DNA of 64,000 nucleotides from Burkholderiales bacterium RIFOXYD12_FULL_59_19. Lineage in GTDB: Bacteria; Pseudomonadota; Gammaproteobacteria; Burkholderiales; Burkholderiaceae_C. The DNA is taken from the NCBI GenBank assembly GCA_001771065.1, contig MESQ01000058.1, positions 1 through 64,000 on the forward strand. The letters run 5' to 3'. Below are positions 44,626 to 64,000 of the stretch, piece after piece (positions within the stretch are counted from its first letter, which is position 1; every line of letters begins with the position of its first letter). A program made the translations under genes and the position numbers. The notes beneath the pieces are model-generated. The model saw nothing but the letters and a program-made list of their open reading frames with translations, was not told the origin of the DNA and did no database searches.

Positions 44626-45546
44626 ATGACCGGCATTTTGGTCCTGGAACAGTCGCTCAACGGCCTGCAGTTCGGCCTGATGCTGTTCTTGCTGGCTGCC
44701 GGGCTAACGCTGGTGTTTGGCATCATGGACATGATCAACCTGGCGCATGGCTCAATCTACATGATCGGGGCCTACCTGATTGCCAGCATGGCACTGGCCA
44801 GTGGGTCGTTCTGGCTCGGGCTGGCGCTCGGCATTGCGGCCACGGCGGCCATCGGCGCACTGCTGGAACTGACAGTGTTGCGCCGCCTGTACCAGCGCGA
44901 TCACCTGTCGCAGGTGCTGGGCACCTTTGCCATTTTGCTGATGAGCAACGAGGTCGTGCGTATGGTCTGGGGTTCGCAGCCGATTGCGCTCAACCCGCCA
45001 GCAGCCTTGGCGGGTCCCGTGGCGCTGTTGCCGGGCTTCAGTTACCCGGCTTATCGACTGTTCATCATTGCCGTGGGCCTGGCGGCGGCTGGCTTGCTGT
45101 ACCTGATGGTGACGCGCACTCGCCTAGGGATGCAGGTGCGCGCCGGTGCCTCGAACCGTGAGATGGCGCTGGCCATGGGCGTCGATGTGCGGCGCCTGTT
45201 TACCCTGGTGTTTGCCATGGGCGCGGGTTTGTGCGCCCTGGCTGGAGGCATGCTCGGGCCGCTGCTGGCGGTGCAGGTCGGCATGGGTGAAAGTATTTTG
45301 ATTCTGGCCTTTGTGGTGATCGTGATCGGCGGCATCGGCTCGATCCGTGGCGCGCTGCTGGGTGCGCTGCTGGTGGGCGTGGTGGACACCGCCGGGCGCA
45401 CCCTGATTCCGTATGTCTTTGAGCGCATCATGGGGCCGGACCTGGCCGCCAACGCAGGCCCGGCCGTCGCCGCGATCCTGATTTATGTGCTGATGGCCGC
45501 AGTGTTGTTCTTCAAGCCCCAAGGGCTGTTTCCAGCCCATGGCTGA
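44626..45546 (+). CDS. livH: ABC transporter permease, LivH type
   Basis: 306 residues, eight or so hydrophobic segments. LivH family features are LQFGLMLFLLAAGLTLVFGI, MDMINLAHGSIYMIGAYL and the EAA-like loop GASNREMALAMGVDVRRLF. It forms half of the membrane channel with the next gene, which it overlaps by 8 nt. GAGGTGG lies upstream as ribosome site. Confidence 0.92.
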   Translation: MTGILVLEQSLNGLQFGLMLFLLAAGLTLVFGIMDMINLAHGSIYMIGAYLIASMALASGSFWLGLALGIAATAAIGALLELTVLRRLYQRDHLSQVLGTFAILLMSNEVVRMVWGSQPIALNPPAALAGPVALLPGFSYPAYRLFIIAVGLAAAGLLYLMVTRTRLGMQVRAGASNREMALAMGVDVRRLFTLVFAMGAGLCALAGGMLGPLLAVQVGMGESILILAFVVIVIGGIGSIRGALLGALLVGVVDTAGRTLIPYVFERIMGPDLAANAGPAVAAILIYVLMAAVLFFKPQGLFPAHG

Positions 45547-57824: not shown

Positions 57825-58640
57825 ATGCTTTTGCATTTCACGAAAAGTATGGAAGCCCTATCTTCCATAACAAGCAATGGTTTCTTGTATTTGCACAATG
57901 AAACCGGCGTATTAGGTCCAGCCGCACGGGATGCATTCGGCATCGACGCGGCTGACACACAATCAAGTGGCATGATCTGCTTCACTGAACTCTCGGAATC
58001 CGAAATTTCAGGTCATCAAGATAAATACGGAAAATTTGGCGCGGGCATCTCCAAGGCATGGCTTGTAGCTAACGGCGCCGGAAAAGTGAATTACGTTCAG
58101 ATTGGCGGCCCGATATACACATCCTTCGTGGAAAGATTGAAATCACTCGCACCCAAAACCCTATATGGAATTTCCACTCAAGAATACTTAGCTAATCCAG
58201 ATACACGGTTCAACGGTACGCAAGCGCTCACCAGCCCTAAGTGGGCATCAGTGGTAGGAGCGAGTGAGGAATTTGTCTCGCTCCTTGAGAGTCTTGAGTG
58301 GACGCAGATTGACAGGGATGCAGCCGAACGCGAATGGCGAATACGCAATCCAAAACCTTATGCGTTTAAAGGCCGCCCCAGTCGGCAAGAAGCGGTTGCC
58401 CTCCTAGTGAACTGCATCTTGGACCCAAACATCCCGGACCAGGTGGAAGGCGTCATGCTTTATACGATAAACGGAAAGCATCAACTCATGTGCCCAGGCA
58501 AATCATCTTTAGCCCTACGGTTGCCTGCAGAGCAAATACAAGCATTATTCTGTCCTCACGACCACAGACCAGTGGTTGACACGGCTCTCGGTGAAGCCGG
58601 TGCAAACCACATCAGAGTCGTTGCAAGCACCGGTGTTTAA
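57825..58640 (+). CDS. AbiGi-like abortive infection family protein
   Basis: 271 residues. The opening LLHFTKSMEALSSITSNGFL, then MICFTELSESEISGHQDKYG and KFGAGISKAWLVANGAGKVN follow the AbiGi pattern (HFT...L..IL..GF, MxCF-D/E-Ls, H...YG.yGig.sKeW, p-V.Y). AbiGi proteins act in phage-induced abortive infection, originally paired with AbiGii. No AbiGii-like nucleotidyltransferase follows; the next sequence is gene debris. Codon use and GC are unlike the upstream core genes. GAGG precedes ATG 57825. The C-terminal third has no recognised motif. Family call is from pattern memory only. Confidence 0.6.
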   Translation: MLLHFTKSMEALSSITSNGFLYLHNETGVLGPAARDAFGIDAADTQSSGMICFTELSESEISGHQDKYGKFGAGISKAWLVANGAGKVNYVQIGGPIYTSFVERLKSLAPKTLYGISTQEYLANPDTRFNGTQALTSPKWASVVGASEEFVSLLESLEWTQIDRDAAEREWRIRNPKPYAFKGRPSRQEAVALLVNCILDPNIPDQVEGVMLYTINGKHQLMCPGKSSLALRLPAEQIQALFCPHDHRPVVDTALGEAGANHIRVVASTGV

Positions 58641-59233: not shown

Positions 59234-59692
59234 TCAGTCAGCCATCATTTTTGGTGGCCGCTTAGCAGTCATTGATCTCCTGGTATTCAGATGCACACAC
59301 ACTGAGCAAACTGTGCAGTTGACAGACCACCTTTGCGCATCAGACATTTCAACGGCAGCGCCGCATTGCTCGCAAGTACGCGCTGCCGCTTGCTGGGCGA
59401 GTTCAATGAGGCGAAGGGCTTGCGGATTTTCATCACGTCTGAAATGACCACGGATATAGAAACGCAGATATCCTAATTTTTCTTTGACTTGAAGGGCTAC
59501 CACCGGCGGTATCGCACCCACAGCCACTTGGCGGGTGATCTCTGCGCACAGACTATCGATGATTTCAAACCAACCATCCCCGCAACCAAATCCCCAACAC
59601 ATGCCTGTCTCGGTCATGTCTGCATGCCGATCACGGAATATGTCCGGGTAGCGTTGACAGAGGAGGTCGTCAAGTTCTTGCCGCATTGGCAT
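59234..59692 (-). CDS. Uncharacterised zinc-ribbon-like protein
   Basis: 152 residues, function not known. The central segment CWGFGCGDGWFEIIDSLCAE and VKEKLGYLRFYIRGHF is a recurring pattern of a small bacterial family of unknown role. The C-terminal part has CEQC and CTVCSVC pairs (about 110-135) that could bind zinc. The ATG (59690-59692) lies 23 nt inside the FtsZ-like gene, so the two are probably coupled in translation. Last gene of the accessory minus-strand run. Confidence 0.6.
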   Translation of the reverse strand: MPMRQELDDLLCQRYPDIFRDRHADMTETGMCWGFGCGDGWFEIIDSLCAEITRQVAVGAIPPVVALQVKEKLGYLRFYIRGHFRRDENPQALRLIELAQQAAARTCEQCGAAVEMSDAQRWSVNCTVCSVCVHLNTRRSMTAKRPPKMMAD

Positions 59693-60371
59693 TTCCGTTC
59701 ATCAATTCGCATAGGCAGGCAGCGATTCGTTGGTTTTGAAGATCGAAAAATTTCCCTTGGTCTATGCCATCTCCGGTAGCTTCCATCAATTCTTGATTGG
59801 AAAAACGCACTAGCAAGTCAGCTTCGCGTTTGAGGTGATGGATGGCGGTGTCCGCAGTTCGGCTTCTCGCTTCCCCTTCAAATTCAAAAGGCGTCACGAC
59901 AGTCGCCACGGTCAACGCGCCAGCTGCTCGTGCCAGTCGCGCCATGATGGGCGTGACTCCGCTGCCTGTGCCACCGCCCAACCCGGCCACCAGGATGACC
60001 ATCTCTGTGTCGGCCATCAGGGCTGTTCGCGTGTCACGGCTTCGCAATGCGGCGGCACGACCGCGATTAACTCGCCCTGCAGAACCCACTGTGGCGAGCG
60101 ATAGGGTCTCAATCGACGGGCAACTCGGTGAAGCTGCGTTGTTGGCATCAATGTAGTTCAGAACTGCAAGATCGAGGTCGACGCCAATGAACTCAAGCAC
60201 CCATTGCGAACTTGCCGGAATTGCTCCTGACTGTGAAGCAGCAAGGACAAAATTGCAGCCTGCGCCACCAATGCCTATGACCTTGCAAGACCTAGTCGGC
60301 GATGCCGTAGTGGTCAGATTCAGGCCAACAGTTCCAGCTCCGAGTCCTTTCAAGAAATACCTGCGATCCAT
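59670..60371 (-). CDS. FtsZ/tubulin-like GTPase domain with Tat-like N-terminus, lacking the C-terminal domain
   Basis: 233 residues. FtsZ GTP-binding loops are clear: T1 VIGIGGAGCN (31-40), the tubulin signature GLGGGTGSG (130-138) and TVVTPFEFEGEARSR (158-171), followed by helix H7-like FFDLQNQRIAACL with the guanine-contacting Asn. The protein ends there. The C-terminal domain with the T7 loop (NxDxxD), needed to trigger GTP hydrolysis in the next subunit, is absent. The N-terminus MDRRYFLKGLGAGTVGLNL looks like a twin-arginine signal (RRxFLK), followed at once by the GTPase fold. AAGGAC lies before the ATG. It may be a filament cap or partner, or a member of the FtsZ-like families proposed to act in membrane remodelling. 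Exact role unknown. Confidence 0.72.
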   Translation of the reverse strand: MDRRYFLKGLGAGTVGLNLTTTASPTRSCKVIGIGGAGCNFVLAASQSGAIPASSQWVLEFIGVDLDLAVLNYIDANNAASPSCPSIETLSLATVGSAGRVNRGRAAALRSRDTRTALMADTEMVILVAGLGGGTGSGVTPIMARLARAAGALTVATVVTPFEFEGEARSRTADTAIHHLKREADLLVRFSNQELMEATGDGIDQGKFFDLQNQRIAACLCELMNGNANAART

Positions 60372-60456
60372 ACCCGTTGTCCTTTGGTTGGGAATTAACG
60401 GGTTTGATTGTTCACTCGCTGTGCGACAGGATACGTCGCCAGCGAAGTGATGGTTC

Positions 60457-61116
60457 TTAGTTGACGTTGATGCTTTCTCGTACTGTTGGATTAAGAACGC
60501 TTTCGTCCGAATATATAACCAGGCCCGGAAGGTTATCCGGCAGAGCCGACGTAACAGCAGTCCCGGCTAACAGAGCGATTGCCGGTTTAATCACTCGGTC
60601 GAGCAAAGCTTTGCTGGAATCCAAGCTTAGCAAGCGAATACTGAATGTCCATTCATATTCTTTCCAGCCATCCTTTAAGTCGCCCCAAACAATAAGGCGA
60701 TTGCTAATAAGCTGGTATGGTGGGTCTTGCGCCAACGGATAACGCATGTAGCACTCGTCATCAAAGCAGTTTTCATCGCGCCAGAGATAGACGTGCAAAA
60801 GTGGATCTTCATTTCCACAAAAAGACATTCCATCACCAATCATGCTGATCTGGTAGCCAATATACATTTCCGGTCTATTTTTCCGCAATGTCTTACCCAT
60901 CAACGGCAGTGAACTAGCGACATCGGTATAAAGCCAACAGGCTTCATCTTGTCGTGAATCTTCCGAAAATTCACCAGCCACTTTGCATGACAAAACAGCC
61001 TTTCCAATTTCTTTTGTTAGCAACTCGTTGAGCGAGCTGCATAGTGAATCTATTTCTTTGCCAAAAGCTGATATAGCATTGAAGCACTGAACTAATTGGT
61101 TTCCATCCCGAGTCAT
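60457..61116 (-). CDS. Uncharacterised protein, coupled partner of the nuclease-like gene
   Basis: 219 residues, not recognised. The N-terminal 35 residues look like an amphipathic helix or coiled coil (LVQCFNAISAFGKEIDSLCS). The middle contains aromatic-rich strands (PEMYIGYQISMIGDG, LLHVYLWRDENCFDDE). The C-terminal end has a mildly hydrophobic helix (VIKPAIALLAGTAVTSAL). The ATG at 61114-61116 is 4 bp after the stop of the nuclease-like gene. AAGGAG for this gene lies within the end of that gene, so the two are tightly coupled. No signal peptide. Confidence 0.6.
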   Translation of the reverse strand: MTRDGNQLVQCFNAISAFGKEIDSLCSSLNELLTKEIGKAVLSCKVAGEFSEDSRQDEACWLYTDVASSLPLMGKTLRKNRPEMYIGYQISMIGDGMSFCGNEDPLLHVYLWRDENCFDDECYMRYPLAQDPPYQLISNRLIVWGDLKDGWKEYEWTFSIRLLSLDSSKALLDRVIKPAIALLAGTAVTSALPDNLPGLVIYSDESVLNPTVRESINVN

Positions 61117-61120
61117 CGCA

Positions 61121-61900
61121 TTACTCCTTGAAAAACGAACTAAAAACACACTCTGATTTTGGAAGATTTGTTGCCGCCTCACCGAAGCCCGCAAACCCAT
61201 GGGTCAAACCATTGAAAGTCCAGTGATTCAGGTTTACGGAAACAGGTAACTCGATTCGGGCCTTTTTGAAACCATTAAAGCGTTTGATGCCAATCGTTTC
61301 AAGAAAGTGACTCGTAAGTTCCGCCCATCGGGCAAGACTATCGAGGCGACTGCGACATTCGAACAGGACATCCCTTATTTCAGCCCAGCTTACGAGCATC
61401 AATCTATCGTCGTTGCCGATTCTCCATTTGTCGCCATTTTTGGACTCCTTTGCCACTAGGCCAGCACTGATTTCTGGAGCGATGAAAACATGCCAACAAT
61501 TTTGCCTAACGTCCTCTCCTAGATAGTTCATCCACTGAAGACTGAGCTGATCTTCTCCACTTAAGGGAGCATGCCATTTGATTTCTATCAGAATATCCAA
61601 CCGCTTGCTATCGGCGTAAAAAAACGTTAAATGTGCGTCAGGTTCGACTCTGTTATTCCTTGGCCAAAAATCGATCTGATACCGAACTGGAGATTGCGTT
61701 GGTAACGCTGCTGATTGGCCTTGTAGTCGAAATAGTTCAGCCCAAAAATGGAAGACTGCGGTTACTTCGAGGAACTCAAGGGTTCCGAATACTGTTGACG
61801 TGATTTCATCTTCTTCACAGACCCGCTTCTCATGTCCATCACGGTCGCCTAAGTAGCGTCGGTAATAGGTCGTCTTTCGTTTCTCTAAAGCATGCAACAT
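61121..61900 (-). CDS. Putative PD-(D/E)XK nuclease-like protein
   Basis: 259 residues. The arrangement fits the PD-(D/E)XK nuclease core: a Glu-rich helix (CEEDEITSTVFGTLEFL, 28-44), then EPDAHLTFFYA with Asp 88, IEIKWHAPLSG with Glu 106 and Lys 108, and a Q/W helix (DQLSLQWMNYL, 117-127). This spacing is common in restriction-like and defence-island effectors with an opening 'E-D-x-L-T-S-x-V-F-G'. The C-terminal half (W...FNGFKK) is not recognised. Lower GC than core genes. Co-transcribed with the partner gene. Nuclease activity is inferred, not shown. Confidence 0.6.
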   Translation of the reverse strand: MLHALEKRKTTYYRRYLGDRDGHEKRVCEEDEITSTVFGTLEFLEVTAVFHFWAELFRLQGQSAALPTQSPVRYQIDFWPRNNRVEPDAHLTFFYADSKRLDILIEIKWHAPLSGEDQLSLQWMNYLGEDVRQNCWHVFIAPEISAGLVAKESKNGDKWRIGNDDRLMLVSWAEIRDVLFECRSRLDSLARWAELTSHFLETIGIKRFNGFKKARIELPVSVNLNHWTFNGLTHGFAGFGEAATNLPKSECVFSSFFKE

Positions 61901-62044: not shown

Positions 62045-62974
62045 TCACCATCGGCTACCCCCACGGCGCCAGAAAAGATTCCTCCCAGACAATTGCTTAC
62101 CATTGCAGCCATCGACTTTGATCTTGCCAATGACGCTGACACCGCCGGTTGCGAGTATGTTGTCAAAGCTCAGTGGTGAATTCTGAATGGGCTCCCAGTC
62201 AAGCCACTCCGACGGATAGACATGGCCAGCGTCTGGATACCCACCCAGACGCACGCCATCCATCAGGTCGAAGCACCCCCTAAAGGTAAGCGGAATTCCA
62301 GTCTGGTGAATGGCTGCGGCAAAACTCAGCGCGTCATTCAACACAGAGAATCCAAGGTTTTCCGGGTCCAAAGGTCCGACCATGACTTCTATCGGGTCAG
62401 GAAACATGCCGCCCATCGGCATCCATTCGACTCTGGGCTTGGCCCACCATTCACCAGAACCACCGAGGCCCTCACGCCGAGGTTCCTCTTTGTACCGATT
62501 CCTTCTATCCGCGATGGGATAGTGGCTGTCCATTGGCTGGAGCAGATCCTCCCTGGGGATGATCCGCAGCAGCGGGTTCCAGTGGTTGGGTTGGCCTTCC
62601 ACTGCAAGGGCCCAGCATTGCAGCAGCCCGTCGCCTATGTTGTCGCCAAGCAATTTGCCTGCGTTGTCCAGGTCGATCTGAACAATTGGCTGCATCGGTT
62701 CATCGTTTGCGAAAGGCCACGACCACTTTGCGCTAGTGAACGGAAAGCCCGGCCCCAACTGATCTGCCATCCGATGGGTCTGGTTTGTTTTGTCCAGCGG
62801 CAGAAACCGGGGCAGACAGTAAGGGCGTGACATTGCGGCATAGGCTCCAACGAAGTTTCTGAGTGCAGCCGTAGGCTGTGCGCTAGCAAATGCATCTAGA
62901 CGGCCCAACGCATCCACCGTCATTGAGCACATCCCCAATCGCCTTGAATTTCCTGATAGCGACTGTTGACTCAT
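62045..62974 (-). CDS. DUF1963-like (YwqG-type) protein
   Basis: 309 residues. IVQIDLDNAGKLLGDNIGDG with LLQCWALAV and a late RLGGYPDAGHVYPSEW resemble DUF1963 proteins, whose fold has Q-I-D-L and G-L-L-Q-F plus a GGyP motif. Function of the family is unknown. The start is ATG 62972-62974, overlapping the stop of the SHOCT gene (ATGA); longer in-frame starts fall inside that gene. Trp- and Pro-rich middle. Confidence 0.5.
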   Translation of the reverse strand: MSQQSLSGNSRRLGMCSMTVDALGRLDAFASAQPTAALRNFVGAYAAMSRPYCLPRFLPLDKTNQTHRMADQLGPGFPFTSAKWSWPFANDEPMQPIVQIDLDNAGKLLGDNIGDGLLQCWALAVEGQPNHWNPLLRIIPREDLLQPMDSHYPIADRRNRYKEEPRREGLGGSGEWWAKPRVEWMPMGGMFPDPIEVMVGPLDPENLGFSVLNDALSFAAAIHQTGIPLTFRGCFDLMDGVRLGGYPDAGHVYPSEWLDWEPIQNSPLSFDNILATGGVSVIGKIKVDGCNGKQLSGRNLFWRRGGSRW

Positions 62975-63708
62975 CGGGGAAACTTGTTCTTGCATTGCGA
63001 TTCCCACTCGTCGAGCATGTCGGCCCTGACTAGAACATCTTCGCCGACTTCCTTCCGATATTTTTCGACGGAATTTTCTACACAACTCGCCACGAAGTCT
63101 GCCGACGCTGGGGTGGCTTGCTCTTTCCTCGCTGGGGAGGGGGCAGCAGGAGTTTCACTGGTGCTTTCGGCATCGTCCAGGACTTCAAAGGTCAACAGGA
63201 ATTTTCCGTCGGCAGTTTGCTCCATCTTGTACGACACGGGGGCCTTCCTTGTGGTGTTGAGCGTAATAGTCGCGCGGCAAACAAGCACATCCGTTTTCGC
63301 ATCACGGCTCTGCTCTTTGACATCATTGACCAAAATTGCACTCAGGTTCATCGATCTTGCAAACTGAGACTGATCAAATGCCCTTTGAAGGGTGTCCTTG
63401 GCGGTGGCGCTATCGCATTGCAGTTTCGAACTATTTGAATTGGCAAGGGGGATGCTAGGACCCACCTGGTTGACTGGGCTGACAGTGCTGTCCGTGCCGG
63501 GGTGGCCTGCAAGACTGCCAAGTGCATTCAACAGGCTGATGGTGCCGATGATTAGCAGGGGAATTGCCCAAAACAGGCGGCGTGATCTCTTTGCCTTGGG
63601 GCTGCTGGTATTCAATATTTCCGCTTTTTTGGCGGCAAACTCTTCTGCGCTAAGCACTCCCTTTTCTTTGAGTTGGCTCAGCTTTTCCAGTTCGTCGGCT
63701 TGACTCAT
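62971..63708 (-). CDS. SHOCT-domain single-pass membrane protein
   Basis: 245 residues. A SHOCT domain at residues 4-33 (ELEKLSQLKEKGVLSAEEFA, then KKAEIL) is followed by one TM helix (LFWAIPLLIIGTISLLNALG, about 44-63). A soluble region with several cysteines follows, likely periplasmic. SHOCT domains bind proteins and often sit at the end of membrane or signalling proteins. ATG 63706-63708 has AAGGTGG upstream and places SHOCT at the very start. First complete gene of the accessory run. Confidence 0.7.
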   Translation of the reverse strand: MSQADELEKLSQLKEKGVLSAEEFAAKKAEILNTSSPKAKRSRRLFWAIPLLIIGTISLLNALGSLAGHPGTDSTVSPVNQVGPSIPLANSNSSKLQCDSATAKDTLQRAFDQSQFARSMNLSAILVNDVKEQSRDAKTDVLVCRATITLNTTRKAPVSYKMEQTADGKFLLTFEVLDDAESTSETPAAPSPARKEQATPASADFVASCVENSVEKYRKEVGEDVLVRADMLDEWESQCKNKFPR

Positions 63709-63876
63709 GTTGTTCCACCTTGAGAAATTTGTTGTTGAAGTCGTCAAACAATCAAGGGGAGCATTCGTGGGCATGAGGCATCTCCTTGAAGGTGCTCATG
63801 GTCGCCCACTATTGCGACAGTATTTGTCGCTTCGAAGATCGGCCAAGCCGACAACTGCATTGCGGTGAGTGAAGAC

Positions 63877-63999
63877 TCAGCGCTGTACGGGCGATTCTGG
63901 TTTGGGAATAGCCTCGGACAAATGGCCATATTGCGCCGCACCTTCGCGCAGGCGGGACGCAACTTCACGTCGAAGCGCCAGCGGTTTTTCGACCTTCAC
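63877..63999 (-). CDS. C-terminal end of a gene entering from the right edge (partial, unknown)
   Basis: An open minus-strand frame from the edge reads VKVEKPLALRREVASRLREG, then AAQYGHLSEAIPKPESPVQR and TGA at 63877-63879. The composition is charged and helix-like. It may be the end of a larger upstream gene, but only 41 codons are visible and chance cannot be excluded. Confidence 0.3.
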   Translation of the reverse strand: MKVEKPLALRREVASRLREGAAQYGHLSEAIPKPESPVQR

Positions 64000-64000
64000 A

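Follow-up and report, generated by a model that had tools for sequence, protein, structure and literature searches.

The locus analysed here raises the question of what use a bacterium with an ordinary FtsZ may have for a second FtsZ-like protein, one that ends behind its GTPase domain and starts with a twin arginine. The window, i.e. the whole stretch of 64,000 nucleotides, encodes this protein in an open reading frame with an ATG start codon at 60371 and 0 internal stops. The ordinary FtsZ of the host is encoded on another contig and is 38% identical to the window protein over residues 28-214. The features of the gene are the following:

59670..60371, minus strand: FtsZ-like single-domain protein, 233 aa (open reading frame, profiles, model, and 233 aa orthologues in loci L046 and L075)
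60380..60385, minus strand: Shine-Dalgarno-like AAAGGA, 8 nt upstream of the FtsZ-like ATG, with the same AAAGGA in L046 and L075
60252..60275, minus strand: T1 loop GIGGAGCN (alignment)
59958..59978, minus strand: T4 loop GGGTGSG, residues 132-138 (translation and alignment)

Profile searches match the window protein to the Pfam family Tubulin (PF00091; 102 bits, residues 29-198, cut-off 33). The NCBIfam model ftsZ (TIGR00065) gives 121 bits over residues 26-218, which is below its cut-off of 295; of the 353 profile positions, the match reaches no further than position 197. The GTPase domain is formed by residues 27-224. The alignment displays T1, T4, T5 (PFEFEGEAR), T6 (N192) and the first part of H7 as retained, with TPFEFEG at residues 160-166. 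D67, E165 and R169 are kept together with N192 and the nucleotide loops; by alignment, D67 is equivalent to D46 of SaFtsZ, in what we take to be the SaFtsZ numbering, and the position of SaFtsZ Q48 is occupied by Ala. The AlphaFold2 model (mean pLDDT 80.8, pTM 0.82) displays an FtsZ fold with disordered residues 1-23 and a last long helix at residues 205-224. The best 50 PDB matches listed by Foldseek for this model are all FtsZ entries (best E 1.3e-14, TMq 0.72; query TM-score up to 0.74 among the matches listed). Alignment to the host's own FtsZ identifies the long helix as H7; the T7 loop (NVDFED), the C-terminal domain and the C-terminal tail are absent, and the sequence ends at residue 233. 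Alignment and model thus agree with the first-pass annotation, which had described an intact T1 loop, GGGTGSG signature and TPFEFEG block in a protein that stops after H7 and has neither T7 loop nor C-terminal domain.

The active site of FtsZ lies on the GTP face of a subunit and is completed by the T7 loop of its neighbour (parts of PMC8936486). Because the window domain has no T7 loop with which to complete the active site of a neighbour, it is predicted that it cannot polymerise or hydrolyse in the manner of FtsZ; judged from its sequence, neither filament extension nor a role as catalytic donor is possible for it.

Orthologues of 233 aa occur in L046 (Rhodoferax MAG STB_186) and L075 (the two-contig genome G767), with 73 and 75% identity to the window protein, the same start and the same ribosome-binding site AAAGGA. 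We refer to the window, L046 and L075 as type I loci. The three type I pairs give dN/dS values of 0.25, 0.27 and 0.40 (Nei-Gojobori, by script), which indicates that the gene is under purifying selection. By these sequence comparisons, the open reading frame is a genuine single-domain relative of FtsZ and a real gene. A truncated pseudogene was ruled out by the orthologues of the same length and the dN/dS of 0.25-0.40, and an assembly artefact by one type I copy lying in G767, a genome of 2 contigs with 100% completeness. Orthologues with the same truncation and neighbourhood had been named as a check: the truncation recurs in L046 and L075, and the neighbourhood is shared as well, but without the AAA+ gene in the window (see below).

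The N-terminus carries the second peculiarity of this protein:

60303..60371, minus strand: Tat-like leader, residues 1-23, MDRRYFLKGLGAGTVGLNLTTTA; RR invariant in a 12-row alignment, predicted disordered

The RR-x-F/L-L-K motif is present at the N-terminus, and the leader MDRRYFLKGLGAGTVGLNLTTTASPTRS matches RR.[FGAVML][LITMVF], which we take to be the TatP pattern. The RRYFLK start with a weakly hydrophobic stretch, pointed out in the first-pass annotation, is borne out: the most hydrophobic 14-residue stretch among its first 30 residues has a value of 1.02, the lowest among the RR copies, which range up to 2.36. Ordinary FtsZ starts have a mean of 0.51 and a maximum of 1.37 (one start; first 24 residues). 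The window protein has no AxA in residues 15-45, and its leader gives 11.6 bits on TIGR01409 (cut-off 16.7). Among 12 members this model matched 5 at E up to 10 (best E 0.04), and among 9 proteins, the R. antarcticus leader included, none at E up to 5. We take TIGR01409 to be poorly sensitive to leaders of this kind, and yet count the result against export.

The leader recurs in the family. The pattern M.{0,4}RR.[FLIMT][LFA] occurs in 12 of 107 distinct FtsZ-type proteins, all 12 being second copies, in 0 of 92 other two-domain FtsZ-type proteins, and in none of three other short proteins, L125 (a contig-end piece of an ordinary FtsZ), L130 and L131. Identity to the window protein goes down to 20% among the 12 aligned members, and only 11 columns of their alignment are invariant, three of them being M1, R3 and R4; the two arginines vary no more than the glycines of the nucleotide loops, in either of two alignments. 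RR starts are found in 17/19 second copies (see below), the others being L182 (HH) and L184 (RH). A TatP-type motif lies within the first 14 residues of 15 of the 18 second copies scored (all but L032, with RRSTL, L182 and L184) and of 0/88 ordinary FtsZ proteins from the same searches, with starts set by script; L081, outside the 18, begins MIDRRKFLQ. The leaders of R. antarcticus (WP_162274854.1, N-terminus MNRRKLFQLLGMLGAWTALPAQAQA), L139 and L181 look like textbook Tat leaders, and the window's own leader looks weak. Hydrophobic region and AxA site are good in R. antarcticus and L181 and weak in the window. In the type I pairs, pN is 0-0.045 in leader codons 1-20 and 0.10-0.13 in codons 21-50. 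Since dS is also low in the first 20 codons, part of this conservation may reflect constraint near the start codon.

A gene for TatC is present in the host genome, and the Tat translocase transports folded, ligand-loaded proteins. The first-pass annotation had considered a Tat-exported GTPase paradoxical and the RR motif possibly a membrane or partner tag. This fits the present data less well: export by Tat appears to be the simpler reading, because the two arginines are conserved to the same degree as the loop glycines and relatives have textbook Tat leaders. GTP is not known to be available in the periplasm; this objection weighs less because turnover would already have been lost along with T7.

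The family was sought in 89 genomes of the genus, 399 of the family and 369 of the class, in 11 chosen genomes, in the loci around the AAA+ gene (see below) and in one plasmid record. This yielded 19 divergent second FtsZ copies, one of them outside the genus group. Ten are single-domain (window, L046, L075, L032, whose wider locus is L058, L076-L079, and two in L080) and seven two-domain (L139, the same gene as L126, L145, L181, L082, L135, L182 and L184). L081 is broken, L183 looks interrupted by a transposase-like gene, and the ends of both cannot be judged. Not counted among the 19 are L124 (a second ordinary FtsZ, in G386), the distant L129-L131, and the contig-end pieces L125, L127 and small matches in G845 and G810. 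L130 and L131 (G072, G322) are single-domain FtsZ-like proteins without RR leader from other families of the class; L129 (G219:C28, approximately 44763-45272), again from another family of the class, is a single-domain FtsZ-like region behind an apparent N-terminal membrane segment. An RR copy is present in 13/89 genus genomes (G000, G767, G811, G839, G776, G836, G818, G777, G779, G812, G828, G838, G829). Among the family genomes, the single-domain profile singled out G000 and G395 alone. The longer profile displayed a second match only in G580, at E up to 1e-85; the single-domain copies in G000 and G395 themselves fall short of this threshold. With just 5-6 candidates scored per genome, the family samples may miss remote members. 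A viral or plasmid origin was rejected: three pattern scans of viral contigs displayed no relative. Used as query, the window protein matched 2 plasmid records and 1 phage-collection record, all ordinary FtsZ; the R. antarcticus protein matched 115 plasmid records, and the annotated ones among the 59 other matches listed are named FtsZ.

The R. antarcticus copy (L135) is a full-length FtsZ homologue annotated as hypothetical:

L135 10427-11536 = NZ_CP019242.1 54449-55558, minus strand: plasmid gene of WP_162274854.1, full-length, with Tat-type leader

In the tree, the window, L046, L075, L032 and L076-L079 form one clade (support 100/99), in which 8/8 members are single-domain. A second clade (99/94) unites the full-length L135, L139, L145, L181 and L182 with the two single-domain L080 copies; L082 and L184 stand on long branches among ordinary FtsZ of the family. 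Once the long-branch rows L135 and L184 are omitted, one clade (96/96) takes in all but L082. The first tree suggested that the leader was gained at least twice independently; this is not claimed here, as the data do not reject one common origin with L082 included (p-AU 0.4). L182 (7139-8128, minus strand; full-length, with the HH start) has neither AAA+ nor WYL in 15 kb nor a leader-like hydrophobic stretch; L184 (3203-4222, plus strand) is a second full-length FtsZ copy with the RH start.

Given seven full-length members, including R. antarcticus with its Tat leader, the family had probably acquired the leader before some of its members lost the C-terminal domain. From the tree, this loss seems to have happened at least twice, and it is old in the window clade, as all eight members are single-domain. 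Full-length relatives had been named as a sign that the window copy is a mere truncation product. They do exist (L082, L139, L145, L181, R. antarcticus), yet the uniformly single-domain clade of the window does not fit that conclusion. T1 and T4 residues have been lost in L139, L181 and L182, and hence GTP binding is probably not required in every lineage. T7 and the C-terminal domain are kept in L145, L082 and R. antarcticus.

This diversity bears on the main alternative, namely that the protein stays in the cytoplasm and caps FtsZ filaments, docking with its GTP-bearing top surface on the T7-exposed, growing bottom end and, for want of a T7 loop itself, blocking growth, with the twin arginine as a leash to the membrane or TatBC. 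The nucleotide loops, D67, E165, R169 and N192 retained by the window protein would suit such a role, and monomers are argued to add by their top surface to the T7-exposed end (sections of PMC8936486). The Ala at the SaFtsZ Q48 position speaks against it, as does the Tat leader, which should take the protein out of the cytoplasm. Moreover, among relatives with the same leader, L139 and L181 lack T1/T4 residues, and L145, L082 and R. antarcticus still have both T7 and the C-terminal domain, and therefore capping cannot be the common role of the family. We regard capping as unlikely. With full-length proteins in the family and others without nucleotide loops, neither export nor capping accounts for all members.

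Tat export may be put into context by the genes around the window protein:

59234..59692, minus strand: Cys-rich (zinc-ribbon-like) protein, 152 aa; the first 23 bp of its gene overlap the end of the FtsZ-like gene
60457..61116, minus strand: uncharacterised neighbour, 219 aa from the ATG used, no Pfam family
61121..61900, minus strand: neighbour of 259 aa, weak PADLOC PDC-M15A match (34.2 bits), 72% to L075
62045..63085, minus strand: uncharacterised protein, conserved part of 292 aa, 81% to L046; its L046 relative has no Pfam family
62971..63774, minus strand: SHOCT-domain protein, 267 aa; in L046 an AAA+ gene comes next, which is absent here
63880..64000 (contig 63880-64983), minus strand: 3' end of a WYL regulator gene (Pfam WYL and WCX on the L046 relative)

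The Cys-rich gene adjoins the FtsZ-like gene in all three type I loci; its protein has no Pfam family over cut-off and a poor model (mean pLDDT 52.6). A longer form of the 60457 open reading frame, to 61200, is 59% identical to an L075 open reading frame. The order in L046 is WYL, SHOCT, a double AAA+ ATPase of 805 aa, the 292 aa protein, a PLD-like protein (19.4 bits, under the Pfam cut-off of 27), FtsZ-like and Cys-rich. The window has the same set minus the AAA+ gene, with the PLD-like gene replaced by two other genes; L075 has the same two replacement genes and an AAA+ remnant of 90 aa. A strict AAA+ partnership for type I was thereby ruled out, and without an AAA+ gene in the window such a partner is not essential. 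Beside the island, the window encodes an AbiGi-like protein (57825-58640, plus strand; PF10899 with 34.8 bits, cut-off 22.4, and PADLOC AbiGi too).

Outside type I, the FtsZ-like gene lies with AAA+, DUF2779 (a name taken from the annotation of L135) and WYL in L139, L145 and L181, where the contig end truncates AAA+ in L181, and divergently from AAA+-DUF2779-WYL in L135. In L080, AAA+, DUF2779 and WYL are a few kb off; L082 has AAA+ and WYL, and L183 only WYL. Altogether, a WYL gene lies within approximately 6 kb of 11/19 copies, and an AAA+ gene or a fragment of it near 8/19. The AAA+ gene itself occurs at 17 places in 14 of the 89 genus genomes, and 12 of these 17 places are without such an FtsZ-like neighbour in the fetched stretches, several being cut by contig ends. 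It lies within 5 kb of the FtsZ-like gene in 5/13 RR genomes, with 0.3% expected per locus (binomial 2e-10, a value that ignores the clustering of mobile genes). The fetched stretches of L058 and L076-L079 contain no AAA+ or WYL gene; the neighbours there are a protein of approximately 170-175 aa, which looks like a degenerate C39 peptidase by its sequence, and small uncharacterised proteins. Three proteins scanned from these neighbourhoods had no Pfam match. Genes of alpha/beta-hydrolase-like proteins with apparent Sec signals lie directly upstream of the FtsZ-like gene in L076 (5478-6452, minus strand), L077 (8743-9534, plus strand) and L078 (9546-10520, plus strand). In L080 (5177-8674), two RR-leader single-domain FtsZ-like genes flank a DnaB_C-type ATPase gene and a gene of 298 aa.

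This linkage may also suggest a phage-defence set in which the protein acts as decoy or sensor, a mimic of FtsZ that binds phage-made FtsZ inhibitors and signals to AAA+/WYL. The linked AAA+ protein matches PADLOC IetA models (best 131.7 bits) and is accompanied by WYL and weakly PLD-like genes; moreover, T7 Gp0.4 bound to FtsZ triggers CapRel immunity, according to the available portion of PMC13423816. However, the Tat leader would part such a decoy from phage proteins in the cytoplasm, neither the window nor the L058/L076-L079 stretches contain the AAA+ gene, and the FtsZ-like proteins scanned (window, L082, L080b) match no PADLOC model. Hence, we consider a decoy quite improbable.

A palindrome precedes two genes of the set and is a candidate for their shared control:

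60423..60439, unstranded: palindrome GCGAC-N7-GTCGC, putative operator, 51 bp upstream of the FtsZ-like ATG
63814..63830, unstranded: second GCGAC-N7-GTCGC, 39 bp upstream of the SHOCT gene

These are the 2 sites in the window, against 0.09 expected, and 0/100 shuffles reach two. The palindrome also lies upstream of SHOCT in L046 and L075, where the first start codon is 58 bp away. The exact form is found 43-62 bp upstream of the FtsZ-like start in 6/18 genes (window, L046, L075, L080a, L082, L135; binomial 1.4e-10, or 5e-8 counting lineages), and 46 bp upstream of the MIDRRKFLQ start of L081, which is outside the 18. An upstream site has one mismatch in L184 and two in L139, L181 and L183. 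The FtsZ-like genes of L058, L076-L079, L080b, L145 and L182 have no palindrome upstream, and the L058 and L076-L079 loci have no exact one at all. Random 200-bp stretches contain an exact site in 0.45% of cases and one with <=2 mismatches in 16%, and therefore only exact palindromes carry weight. Such palindromes also lie upstream of AAA+ genes (the L075 remnant, L139, L142, L082, L135; 39-94 bp, with starts as used).

Exact palindromes were found in 21/203 loci, many being copies of the same places, and L093 and L129 being unrelated. Across six genomes, 14/63 sites lie inside these islands. As the palindrome is rarer genome-wide than a reversed control in 6/6 genomes, the case rests on position and not on abundance. 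The spacer has diverged between species, which favours an operator bound by protein. No exact palindrome was seen directly upstream of a WYL gene; the WYL protein is probably the reader of the operator. Other spacings of 8-12 bp gave one site, in the unrelated locus L037, and allowing one mismatch at a spacing of 10 bp gave a single, distant site in the window; 7 is the right spacing. The same palindrome was seen near other genes (L141 6496, L143 3364, L139 7834, L081 4815), and the regulon may be wider than the FtsZ-like, SHOCT and AAA+ genes.

A decaying, functionless remnant of an ftsZ duplicate, for which the patchy distribution (13/89 genomes) and the broken copies L081 and L183 could be cited, is very improbable and already largely refuted by the same 233 aa in three genomes, the dN/dS of 0.25-0.40, and a leader, ribosome-binding site and upstream palindrome conserved although the spacers diverged.

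Taken together, the window protein may be a non-polymerising protein of FtsZ fold that is exported by Tat and belongs to a co-regulated, defence-like set of genes, a reading that we regard as evenly poised between right and wrong. We hypothesize that the protein encloses GTP or GDP as it folds in the cytoplasm, that its RRxFLK leader is recognised, and that the folded protein is delivered to the Tat translocase. It would end up periplasmic or anchored to the inner membrane, where it would be a nucleotide-binding domain of FtsZ fold without FtsZ-type polymerisation or hydrolysis, possibly with a role in defence or at the envelope. The FtsZ-like gene would be switched together with SHOCT and, in relatives, with AAA+ via the common palindromic operator, on which the linked WYL regulator probably acts; the set itself would be mobile and defence-like.

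To our knowledge, all known tubulin-superfamily proteins work in the cytoplasm, and nearly all form filaments. A tubulin-superfamily protein working outside the cytoplasm is a more tentative proposal, for which we see somewhat less than an even chance: a folded FtsZ duplicate exported by Tat, non-polymerising, with nucleotide loops lost in some lines, and sharing one operator with a mobile AAA+/WYL defence or stress set. If true, this would be a new use of the tubulin/FtsZ fold, in which the GTPase fold was kept, the filament parts were dropped and an export signal was gained, and Tat carriage of nucleotide-loaded folds would become testable. The palindrome and the AAA+/WYL linkage define a concrete gene set, of which one copy lies on a plasmid of R. 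antarcticus DSMZ24876, and phage or stress phenotypes are testable.

The RR-leader FtsZ-derived family has apparently been undescribed so far. Among open-licence PMC papers, titles and abstract starts gave no description of an exported or single-domain FtsZ family, and the accessible text of a 2023 survey (PMC9871819) has no mention of Tat, truncated or Burkholderi.

In comparison with known systems, the window protein shares with FtsZ (TIGR00065) the GTPase domain fold and the signatures GGGTG(S/T)G and T1 GGxGxN; unlike FtsZ, it has no T7 NxDFxD, C-terminal domain or tail, carries an additional RR leader and stays far under the TIGR00065 cut-off. WYL-regulated defence sets reportedly include BREX and CBASS. 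The loci described here resemble them in the WYL regulator and AAA+ ATPase and, in some loci, in nuclease-type and PLD-like genes; no BREX or CBASS core genes were recognised on reading the loci, and the FtsZ-like gene is an addition. Tubulin_2 (PF13809), which we take to be a marker of FtsZl1, gives 18.9 bits on the window protein (cut-off 27), and none of the 6 window neighbours scanned is a vWA gene. If the window protein were cytoplasmic, its outcome could be FtsZ end-capping, as with MciZ; MciZ, in part according to excerpts of PMC8936486, is an unrelated peptide that binds the bottom surface, whereas the window protein derives from FtsZ itself and has a top surface. FtsZl1 and FtsZl2 are likewise extra FtsZ-superfamily proteins beside a normal FtsZ, and FtsZl1 is linked to other genes and itself without recognisable T6-H7 (Makarova and Koonin 2010, PMC2875224, as far as its consulted sections go). 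According to the same sections, FtsZl1 lies mostly with vWA genes, and FtsZl2 has approximately 300 aa more at its C-terminus, whereas the window protein ends at 233. Unlike both, the window protein is close to true FtsZ, stops at H7 and bears a Tat-like leader.
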